Below are positions 5,459 to 12,110 of a DNA stretch of 64,000 nt, in pieces (within the stretch, counting starts at the first letter, position 1; the number at the start of each line of letters is the position of its first letter). The position numbers were made by a program, and so were the translations under genes. The stretch is from positions 124,001-188,000 of the forward strand of contig JAAFIP010000008.1 in the NCBI GenBank assembly GCA_013297865.1, written 5' to 3'. The notes beneath the pieces were generated by a model that made no database searches, was not told where the DNA came from, and saw nothing but the letters and a program-made list of their open reading frames with translations. The DNA is from Polaromonas sp. (GTDB lineage Bacteria; Pseudomonadota; Gammaproteobacteria; Burkholderiales; Burkholderiaceae_C).

Positions 5459-5860
5459 ATGACAATCACCGTCACCCGCAACCACCAGCACCCCATGGGC
5501 CACACAGTGCGTATGGGTGCGCATGAGATCACGACAGATGCTACGGCAAGCGAAGGCGGCAGCGATGCCGGGCCTTCGCCGCACGACCTGTACGACGCAG
5601 CGCTAGGGGCGTGCAAAGCCCTGACGGTGCTGTGGTATGCTCAACGCAAAAAAATTGCGGTGCACGACATTGAGGTGCAGGTAGAGCGCGACAGCTCGCA
5701 AGAGCGCCAGGGACTGTATCGACTGAAAACCATACTCAAAGTGACAGGCGACATCAGCGCTGCACAAAAGCAGGAGCTGTTGACAGTGGCAGGCAAATGC
5801 CCGGTGCACAAGCTGATGACCTCGGTGCGCACCGAGGTGGACACCGTACTGGCAGAGTAA
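5459..5860 (+). CDS. OsmC-family peroxidase/redox protein
   Basis: A 133-residue cytoplasmic OsmC/Ohr-family protein. The two redox cysteines are seen in ALGACKALTVLWYA (near residue 51) and AGKCPVHKLM (near 114), the usual arrangement for thiol-dependent hydroperoxide reduction. SPHDLYDAALGAC is the family signature. The start is preceded by GAGGAG at 5444-5449. The pirin gene begins 11 bp after its stop, so the two are probably co-transcribed. The N-terminus is nearer the YhfA-like branch than Ohr, so substrate specificity is open. Confidence 0.88.
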   Translation: MTITVTRNHQHPMGHTVRMGAHEITTDATASEGGSDAGPSPHDLYDAALGACKALTVLWYAQRKKIAVHDIEVQVERDSSQERQGLYRLKTILKVTGDISAAQKQELLTVAGKCPVHKLMTSVRTEVDTVLAE

Positions 5861-9655: not shown

Positions 9656-9697
9656 GAGGCATAAAATGTCGTAAACAAAGTTTTTGAAGCATAAAAA
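9656..9697. promoter_or_regulatory. Candidate Lrp operator: direct repeats 30 bp apart
   Basis: GAGGCATAAAAT (9656-9667) and GAAGCATAAAAA (9686-9697) share 10 of 12 bases and lie 30 bp apart start to start, about three helical turns. The palindrome ATGAATTCAT overlaps the lrp start codon just after. Lrp/AsnC proteins bind phased AT-rich sites, so autoregulation and control of divergent aceE is plausible. Confidence 0.45.
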
Positions 9698-9698
9698 T

Positions 9699-10175
9699 AT
9701 GAATTCATCAATTGATACCGTAGATTTGCGTATTCTGGGTGAGCTCCAGCAGGACGGCAGTCTGAGCAATGTAGAGCTGGCCCGCCGCGTGCACCTAAGC
9801 CCCTCGCCCTGCCTGGCCCGTGTCAAGGCGCTGGAGGCCAACGGCACCATCAGCCGCTATGTGGCGCTGGCCAACGCTGCGGCCCTGGGGCTAGGCCTCA
9901 ACGTCTTTATCAACATCAGCCTGAAGACGCAGAGCAAAGAAGCCCTGGCCGATTTTGAGCGGCGCATCGCCGAGCACGACGAGGTGATGGAGTGCTACCT
10001 GATGACCGGCGACAGCGACTATTTGATCCGCGTAGCCGTGGCCGACATGGCGGCTTTGGAAAAATTCATCTTGGAGCAGCTTTCGCCCATCCCAGGGCTG
10101 GAGAAAATCCGCTCCAGCTTTGCGCTCAAGCAAGTGCGTTATAAAACGGCGTTGCCGCTGCCTAAAAGGAGCTGA
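9699..10175 (+). CDS. Lrp/AsnC family transcriptional regulator
   Basis: A 158-residue DNA-binding protein with an N-terminal winged HTH (about residues 4-60, DLRILGELQQDGSLSNVELA then VHLSPSPCLARVKAL) and a C-terminal RAM/ligand domain (about 65-145, ending IPGLEKIRSSFALKQVRYKT). It is divergent from aceE. Lrp paralogues beside central-carbon genes often control them in response to an amino acid; control of aceE is inferred from position and from the phased repeats in the shared promoter. ATG 9699 is chosen over an in-frame TTG at 9684 because a GAAG lies 9 bases before it. Confidence 0.88.
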   Translation: MNSSIDTVDLRILGELQQDGSLSNVELARRVHLSPSPCLARVKALEANGTISRYVALANAAALGLGLNVFINISLKTQSKEALADFERRIAEHDEVMECYLMTGDSDYLIRVAVADMAALEKFILEQLSPIPGLEKIRSSFALKQVRYKTALPLPKRS

Positions 10176-10254
10176 TTGATGAGCATGCCGTAACTCTGGT
10201 GGATTGCGTTTCTATCTTTCGGCAAGCGAATAAGCGGGCTTTGGGTCTGCGCTT

Positions 10255-10348
10255 GCCCTGGCACTTGGCGTGCACAGCTCCGCGGCTGTCCCCCGGCCTG
10301 CGGCCTCCTCCTTTATGCCGCTGCGCTGTGCACACCAAGCGCCAGGGC
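10255..10348 (-). repeat. Structured hairpin element E1 (94 bp, minus reading)
   Basis: Read on the minus strand, a 24-bp outer helix (ends GCCCTGG...CCAGGGC) encloses a conserved internal region (GCAGCGGCAT..AAGGAGGAG and GGGGGACAGCCGCGGA) and an inner hairpin GGCC-GCA-GGCC. GCGGC can also pair with GCCGC. Compared with E2 it has 16 differences, 14 of them forming seven compensated pairs. Its two non-Watson-Crick pairs are G-U on this strand but A-C on the other, so a minus-strand RNA is suggested. Confidence 0.75.
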
Positions 10349-10495
10349 TGCGTAGCGGGATGGTTGGGGCGATAACGGTTGATTGGCGACTTGGTCAAGT
10401 AAACGAGTAGTCCATATTCGAGCGCCGCGCGCCTGCCATGCCCGATTTCGGCAAGGTAATGGATATTCAACCGCCGCGCGCACACCACGCTCGCT

Positions 10496-10589
10496 GCCCC
10501 GGCGCTTGGGGTGAGTGGCGCAGCGGCATCAAGGAGGAGCCCGAAGGGCGGGGGACAGCCGCGGAGCCACTCACCCCAAGTGCCGGGGC
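10496..10589 (+). repeat. Structured hairpin element E2 (94 bp, plus reading)
   Basis: Inverted homologue of E1. The outer helix runs from GCCCCGG to CCGGGGC, the inner hairpin is GCCC-GAA-GGGC, and the internal sequence is the same as E1 except two unpaired bases. All outer pairs form, one as a G-U wobble on the plus strand. The orientation is divergent from E1, with 147 bp between them. Confidence 0.75.
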
Positions 10590-10621
10590 GTACAAAAAGC
10601 CCAAGTGCTGGGGCGTACAAA
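10575..10621 (+). repeat. Tandem repeat, 25-bp period
   Basis: CCCAAGTGCCGGGGCGTACA at 10575 is repeated as CCCAAGTGCTGGGGCGTACA at 10600. The first copy includes the right arm of hairpin element E2, so the arm end has been duplicated together with a GTACAAA flank. Confidence 0.8.
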
Positions 10622-10725
10622 CCGATGCGATGGCTAAGCAGTTCTGCGCAGGTTTTCGCAGACAGACACAAGACCTATAAATATTTGCGCTTTGGCCCAA
10701 GTATTGCTAGGATAGTAGTAGAAAC

Positions 10726-10741
10726 TTGACCAAACGGTCAG
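10726..10741. promoter_or_regulatory. RutR-type operator upstream of preT
   Basis: TTGACCAAACGGTCAG matches the known RutR palindrome TTGACCAnnTGGTCAA at 14 of 16 positions (n counted as matches). It sits 5 bp before the preT ribosome-binding site, where a bound repressor would block transcription. A RutR-like gene is encoded at 16657-17358. Confidence 0.75.
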
Positions 10742-10760
10742 TTTTAAAAGGAGTACCGAC

Positions 10761-12110
10761 GTGCCCCCTGCTGCCCAACCCGACATCCGCGCTGGCCGCC
10801 TGTCCGCCCAGGACTATGCTGTCCACTTTGGCGACGCCACTCCGCGCCTGACCGCATCCCAGGCGCTGCTCGAAGCCGAGCGCTGCCTCTACTGCTTTGA
10901 TGCGCCCTGCGCCACGGCCTGCCCCACCAGCATCGATGTGCCCTCGTTTATTAAGCGCATTGCCGACGGCAATTTGCGCGGCTCGGCCCGCACTATTCTG
11001 GAGTCCAACCCGCTGGGCGGCATGTGCGCCCGCGTGTGCCCCACCGAGAATCTGTGTGAGGCAGTGTGCGTGAAAAACACCCAGGAAAGCAAACCTGTAG
11101 CCATTGGTCGCCTGCAGCGCTACGCGGTAGACGCGCTGATGGAGAGCGCTAAGCCGCAGATATTCACCCGCGCGCGCGCCACAGGCAAAAAAGTGGCTGT
11201 GGTGGGCGCTGGCCCTGCGGGCCTGGCCTGCGCCTACACACTGGCCCGGCTGGGCCACAGCGTGGTGGTGTTCGATGCCAAGCCCAAACCTGGCGGGCTC
11301 AACGAATACGGCCTGGCCAGCTACAAAACCCCGAACAACTTTGCCCAGCGCGAGGTGCAGTGGCTGCTGGACATTGGCGGTATCGAGATTCAAAACAATT
11401 GGAAACTTGAGAGCCCACAGCAGCTGCAAGCCCTGCGTACGGATTACGACGCCCTGTTTCTGGGCATGGGCCTGTCCAGCACGCACCAGCTTGGCGTGCC
11501 CGGTGAGTCAATGCAGGGCGTGCAGGACGCCGTGGACTTTATTGCCACGCTGCGCCAGACGGCGGACTTGGCTACCTTGCCGGTAGGCCGCACGGTGGTG
11601 GTGATTGGCGGCGGCATGACGGCGGTGGATGCTGCCGTGCAGTCCAAGCTGCTGGGCGCGGAGACGGTGCACATGGTGTACCGGCGCGGACCTGAGACCA
11701 TGACCTCGTCCAGAGACGAACAGGAGTGGGCGCAGACCCATGGCGTCAACATCCAGCACTGGTTGGCCCCGGTCGAGGTGGTCGGCGAGGGCGGCCATGC
11801 CACGGGTGTGCGCTTTGCGCGCCAGGCCATGGTGGGCGGCAAGCTGGCGCCGACAGGCGAGACGCAGGTGATCGCTGCTGACATGGTGCTCAAGGCCATT
11901 GGCCAGCAGCTGGGCAACCCGGTGCTCGCGCAGGCGGGTTTGCAGTTGCAGGGCGGGCGCATTGCCACGGATGCCACGGGTTTGAGCAGCCTGCCGGGCG
12001 TGTGGGCGGGCGGCGACTGCAGGGCAGGCGGGCAAGACCTGACGGTGGAGGCGGTCGAGCACGGCAAGCAGTCGGCCCGCGCCATACATGCGCAGCTCAC
12101 GCGCGGCTGA
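10761..12110 (+). CDS. preT: NAD-dependent dihydropyrimidine dehydrogenase subunit PreT
   Basis: 449 residues. With PreA it reduces uracil and thymine to 5,6-dihydro forms using NADH, the first step of reductive pyrimidine catabolism. The N-terminal domain has two cysteine sets for 4Fe-4S clusters (CLYCFDAPCATACPTS near residue 42 and GGMCARVCPTENLCEAVC near 88), as in glutamate synthase small subunit. FAD-binding VVGAGPAGLACAY (near 150) and NAD-binding VVIGGGMTAVDAA (near 280) follow. The GTG start is preceded by AAAAGGAG. preA follows after 55 bp. A RutR-type operator lies directly upstream. Confidence 0.93.
   Translation: MPPAAQPDIRAGRLSAQDYAVHFGDATPRLTASQALLEAERCLYCFDAPCATACPTSIDVPSFIKRIADGNLRGSARTILESNPLGGMCARVCPTENLCEAVCVKNTQESKPVAIGRLQRYAVDALMESAKPQIFTRARATGKKVAVVGAGPAGLACAYTLARLGHSVVVFDAKPKPGGLNEYGLASYKTPNNFAQREVQWLLDIGGIEIQNNWKLESPQQLQALRTDYDALFLGMGLSSTHQLGVPGESMQGVQDAVDFIATLRQTADLATLPVGRTVVVIGGGMTAVDAAVQSKLLGAETVHMVYRRGPETMTSSRDEQEWAQTHGVNIQHWLAPVEVVGEGGHATGVRFARQAMVGGKLAPTGETQVIAADMVLKAIGQQLGNPVLAQAGLQLQGGRIATDATGLSSLPGVWAGGDCRAGGQDLTVEAVEHGKQSARAIHAQLTRG

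Follow-up and report, generated by a model that had tools for sequence, protein, structure and literature searches.

Upstream of preT, a 64,000-nucleotide stretch of Polaromonas sp. DNA (the window) contains two inverted 94-bp hairpin units, E1 and E2. The locus raises the question of what kind of element these units form, and whether their shape is maintained as RNA or as DNA. The features of the region are as follows.

10255..10348, minus strand: E1 hairpin unit, with a 24-bp outer helix, conserved core and 4-bp inner hairpin; stem type 'A', subfamily II
10496..10589, plus strand: E2 hairpin unit, architecture as in E1; stem type 'A', subfamily I
10349..10495, no strand: spacer between E1 and E2, 147 bp, largely degenerate ~49-bp repeats
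10407..10493, plus strand: ~49-bp spacer repeat, in two copies (10407-10444 and 10456-10493, 74% shared)
10575..10621, plus strand: E2 outer end, present twice in tandem (CCCAAGTGCNGGGGCGTACAAA at 10575-10596 and 10600-10621, 95%)
10240..10600, no strand: mobile element, approximate limits; copies cease to be homologous ~5-13 bp beyond the hairpins
9684..10175, plus strand: flanking gene for an Lrp/AsnC-type regulator, named from its sequence; outside the element
10761..12110, plus strand: flanking gene preT, named from its sequence; outside the element

Fold and strand specificity of the hairpin unit

The aligned copies of E1 and E2 differed at 16 of 94 positions, and the coordinates and counts given by an earlier, sequence-only reading were exact. 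In the predicted fold, 14 of the 16 differences formed seven compensatory pairs that all remained paired, as that reading had claimed: six in the outer helix (5-90, 15-80, 19-76, 20-75, 21-74 and 22-73) and one in the inner hairpin (45-53). The other two, at 35 and 49, were unpaired. The non-Watson-Crick pairs of the outer helix were G-U on the read strand. This strand folded into 24 outer plus 5 and 4 further pairs, with energies of -69.8 and -74.3 kcal/mol for E1 and E2 (z -8.2 and -9.0; no shuffle was equally good), and the complement strand of E1 folded less well (-61.9 kcal/mol).

We then considered many copies. All 24 outer pairs had changed on both sides, with 597 two-sided cells versus 152 in shuffles. 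Two-sided change was found in 29 of 32 pairs among 70 units, and the covariation score was 0.765 versus 0.222 in shuffled sequences; these units were picked for diversity and pairing (at least 18 of 24), a selection that inflates the percentage paired. Without that selection, 85% of cells still paired (136 units from other genomes). A set of 40 units taken from other genomes and other families showed covariation at 31 of 32 pairs, in an alignment that was made on the model and leans toward it. Free-energy folding of single sequences without the model gave the same architecture in nearly all cases. The covariation first noticed in two copies was therefore upheld in both the 70-unit set and the 40 other-genome units.

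The outer pairs varied around a fixed core, AUNAAGGAGGAG-hairpin-GGGGGACA, and the internal region described earlier as almost unchanged turned out to be the most invariant part of the unit. The 3x3 'loop' GCA/GGA holds a C-G pair, which becomes A-U in three units. At the purine loop positions 40/76, A/G occurred 181 times, G/A 13, A/A 4 and G/G once (Fisher p 4e-16). This swap of A40/G76 for G40/A76 fits a genuine purine-purine contact, as expected. These results showed that the hairpin is maintained as a specific fold, with a freely changing 24-bp outer helix and inner hairpin and a fixed purine-rich internal loop. The shape is kept while most of the sequence changes, so what counts must be how one particular strand folds.

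Wobble pairs were used to examine the strand. The ratio of G-U to A-C on the read strand was 229:44 in 83 dissimilar units, and 298:174 in mispaired arms of the same composition. Arm composition by itself already yields 1.7:1, which makes a 1:1 expectation too generous; the composition-corrected excess of G-U, ~7 standard deviations, is real yet smaller than the 1:1 expectation suggests. G-U beyond composition indicated that the read-strand fold is under selection. In single-stranded DNA, too, a hairpin is more stable with a G-T wobble than with A-C. The excess therefore argues that a symmetric cruciform of double-stranded DNA is not the only selected form; it does not argue against a hairpin of single-stranded DNA. 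Of the earlier proposal of RNA rather than a DNA cruciform, the strand-specific wobble was upheld beyond composition; the selected fold may be RNA or single-stranded DNA.

Dispersal of the paired hairpins

A 20-base core search of the 4.0-Mb genome identified ~62 units, and a reversed control pattern gave 0 matches; counts inside one genome are linked by shared ancestry. The units formed 30 head-to-head pairs and 2 singles. Their intra-pair spacers measured 48-198 bp, mostly in steps of ~49, because each spacer is made of one to four degenerate repeats. Three subfamilies could be distinguished by their stems, and every pair except one joined stem types A and B (29/30). The pair E1/E2 was atypical in that both halves had the same stem type, and it was mixed, the A stem of E1 coming from one subfamily and that of E2 from another.

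Whole pairs at unrelated loci were up to 94-96% identical, and homology between copies ended ~5-13 bp past the hairpins, or further out where the outer end was tandemly repeated. Such near-identity between unrelated loci, together with the sharp ends, showed that the pair spreads as a unit. E1 and E2 are halves of one copy of a dispersed mobile repeat. The outer end was tandemly multiplied in 22-25 bp steps in several copies (window 10575-10621, L025 and L039). According to a simple codon-usage gene call, all 32 loci examined in this genome were intergenic; their flanking genes were tandem in 24 cases, convergent in 5, divergent in 2 and unclear in 1, and no rule was seen that linked A/B stem order to flanking gene direction.

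The pairing of unlike stems was general. Among 72 distinct neighbouring pairs, 68 were head-to-head, with spacers of 15-150 bp in that set. The left arms of partners in these 68 pairs shared 7-16 of 24 bases, the window pair alone reaching 18; at least 18 of 24 were shared by 44% of arbitrary unit pairs in this genome. Unlike stems would let each partner fold alone rather than pair with the other; alternatively, they may avoid an unstable long inverted repeat. Four loci (L074, L091, L131 and L260) contained three units or directly repeated neighbours in place of a single divergent pair.

Exact cores were found, among the matches listed, in many records titled Rhodoferax, Hydrogenophaga, Polaromonas, Comamonas and others. 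Within the family, 68 of 151 genomes gave a match to the covariance model (R1); at the level of the order it was 18 of 399, among them members of two other families. A search with the short pattern AAGGAGGAG-N(3,32)-GGGGGACA likewise gave 18/399, with almost no control matches, and extended the range to one more family, in the same class but not in the order, where head-to-head pairs were again found. Counts from searches spanning over 40 genomes are lower bounds because few candidates per genome were scored. Occurrence was patchy, with 0 and >20 units in genomes of one genus. The aceE-lrp arrangement at the window site is kept in 29 other genera, and none of the loci read had the hairpin pair after lrp; one aceE-lrp locus (L229) gave a weak, single regex match with ten mismatches. 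Distant matches occurred on three Variovorax megaplasmid records. A phage or viral origin was rejected, as viral contigs had no exact core and phages gave no match.

Known repeats and competing explanations

The window and 13 other loci gave 0 Rfam 15 matches above the gathering threshold, so that the unit is not a known Rfam family, in line with the earlier reading. Sub-threshold matches to miRNA precursors were weak and were put down to chance from the strong hairpin. The unit is not a riboswitch either: it has no constant leader orientation and occurs in both orientations, in tandem, convergent and divergent contexts. It resembles Rfam structured RNAs in its helix covariation and conserved internal loop.

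With REPINs/BIMEs (PMC3116915, PMC2817692, PMC3733652) the repeat shares inverted palindrome pairs, intergenic and dispersed placement and several subfamilies per genome, and it is itself a multi-copy intergenic inverted palindrome pair. It differs in having units of 90-113 nt, ~3 times longer than the 20-40 nt REP palindromes, a fixed internal loop, rewritten stems and partners that are nearly always unlike. No conserved tetranucleotide of the GTAG/CGTC type lies directly beside the hairpin. DDE-transposase MITEs of the Correia/NEMIS type share a length of a few hundred bp, inverted ends and a non-autonomous nature; in the present element, however, the outer ends are unconserved between genomes, each end is a complete hairpin, and conserved terminal inverted repeat tips were not found.

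The BRE repeat comes close. The available text of Hot et al. (2011; PMC3110155) describes it as ~90 bp, intergenic and G+C rich, present in Bordetella and Comamonadaceae (29 copies in Polaromonas sp. JS666, 4 in Rhodoferax ferrireducens), with partial matches conserved over 40-60 bp, possibly mobile and of unexplained function; copies lie in tandem with no or few bases between them, and BRE overlaps the sRNAs bprJ1/bprJ2 of Bordetella pertussis. Compared by description, not letters, the two repeats agree in size (~90 bp), intergenic placement, host genera (Polaromonas and Rhodoferax) and variable copy number. The present core of ~50 nt fits the conserved part, and among the matches listed it is abundant in Rhodoferax and Polaromonas. 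The tandem arrays of BRE differ from the spaced head-to-head pairs seen here (68/72), and the available text reports no fold or covariation. The element may well be BRE, although we stop short of calling this probable. This is a matter of identity and compatible with a mobile repeat, a reading that stands whether or not the two are the same.

We favour, as the probable explanation, a REPIN/BIME-like non-autonomous mobile repeat with fold-specific hairpin ends, mobilised by an enzyme in trans. E1 and E2 would be the two ends of one element of ~250-410 bp (about 300), in which a short spacer separates two large, outward-facing hairpins, in REPIN/BIME fashion. Copying and insertion between genes involve the pair as a whole. 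A trans-acting enzyme or binding protein would recognise the fold, whether it forms in single-stranded DNA or in RNA, and this putative recogniser would read the internal loop of fixed, purine-rich sequence (AUNAAGGAGGAG / GGGGGACA) and the helix geometry, not the helix sequence. An element of the REPIN type that is moved in trans would be expected to disperse as a unit and to have shape- and strand-specific ends, as seen here. An autonomous copy, with a transposase that several pairs have in common, was not found; we therefore infer mobilisation in trans from dispersal only.

The mobilising enzyme appears to be other than the usual REP transposase. A true REPIN/BIME moved by a RAYT (Y1_Tnp) transposase would account for the inverted, intergenic, multi-copy pairs, and the genome does have one Y1_Tnp gene; however, besides the length of the units, neither linkage nor co-occurrence ties RAYT to the repeat in this genome or across the 151 genomes. 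The Y1_Tnp gene lies >60 kb from the nearest copy, such genes are about equally common in genomes with the element (53/68) and without it (60/83), and one genome (G021) has 21 element matches and 0 Y1_Tnp. We therefore consider RAYT mobilisation very unlikely. A relative without the hairpin repeat (G016) has ~20 Y1_Tnp matches, some identical, probably an active IS200-like element.

A structured RNA useful to the host, whose hairpins act in transcripts (3' end protection, protein binding or processing) and whose copies spread and are tolerated or useful, would explain the read-strand G-U excess beyond composition and the A-G/G-A swap, which is typical of a packed internal loop. With a divergent pair, transcription from either side also meets a unit in the read orientation, and if the element is BRE, the overlap with bprJ1/bprJ2 given in the available text (PMC3110155) would fit as well. 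The mostly tandem flanking genes (24/5/2), with stem order free of gene direction, the patchy presence between species and a sigma-70 scan with no promoter-like match in 10150-10780 speak against it. It is still a reasonable rival, albeit an unlikely one, and the element could be a useful RNA that also spreads. Quasipalindrome correction, an established process, makes both arms match by template switching in imperfect palindromes, and could yield compensatory changes with no structural selection. It restores Watson-Crick pairs and has no one-strand G-U preference, yet such an excess is present, and it would neither conserve the internal loop nor yield the A-G/G-A swap, which makes it highly improbable. 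Intrinsic terminators, possibly bidirectional, would also be strong intergenic hairpins; a T-tract is absent after either unit, the outer flanks read GTACAAA or CGCGAAGC, and neither of the two terminator-like sites detected corresponds to a unit, so that this explanation is hardly credible.

The mobile repeat read as REPIN/BIME-like bears on a wider question. Helices rewritten per lineage around a fixed fold and loop point to a dedicated, as yet unnamed recogniser. Because the repeat is shared by several families within the phylum, identifying the enzyme would account for a widespread repeat and might uncover a new system of mobilisation or RNA binding. A more ambitious version, which we regard as doubtful, would be a widespread mobile family recognised by shape and not by sequence, with paired hairpins, a core rich in purines (its eight G, in GGAGG/GGGGG, possibly forming a two-layer G-quadruplex), a single-strand-specific mobilising enzyme and accessory-gene cassettes in some hosts.

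Hairpin pairs enclosing other DNA

The cassette question is directly testable at Hydrogenophaga-like loci. In a Hydrogenophaga-like genus, the proC-ubiA gap was 0-21 bp in eight species and contained the element in others (loci L107, L111, L070, L145, L192-L203, L278 and L279). There the hairpin pair encloses species-dependent DNA, from 31 bp (L196) to 2.5 kb. Between these lie classes of ~0.4 kb and of 0.8-1.0 kb, one of the latter with a trypsin-like protein; the 2.5-kb cargo encodes a DDE transposase and a Phd/YefM antitoxin. Several of these loci had broken half-hairpins, and some hairpins were halved at the cargo junction. The count made for the orthologous unit on the ubiA side was obscured by one broken and one shifted copy and carries no weight here. 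A second pair of this kind (L277 688-3516; G562 C1:1003022-1006297) lies ~3 kb apart around deaminase and oxygenase genes, a cytidine-deaminase-domain protein (570 aa) and a Rieske oxygenase-like ORF.

No transposase was common to the gene-enclosing pairs, and defence families in the cargo amounted to just one weak dCTPase-like match. These pairs are at most candidates for a cassette role, and the proC-ubiA variation may be that of a plain insertion hotspot. A Phd/YefM antitoxin gene adjoins half-hairpins or hairpins at the proC-ubiA gap in L202, L190, L145 and L203, with a CcdB toxin as well in L202. In L107, at ~5510-5590, the cargo end resembles, by eye, an integron attC site (GCCTAAC ... 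GTTGGAC).
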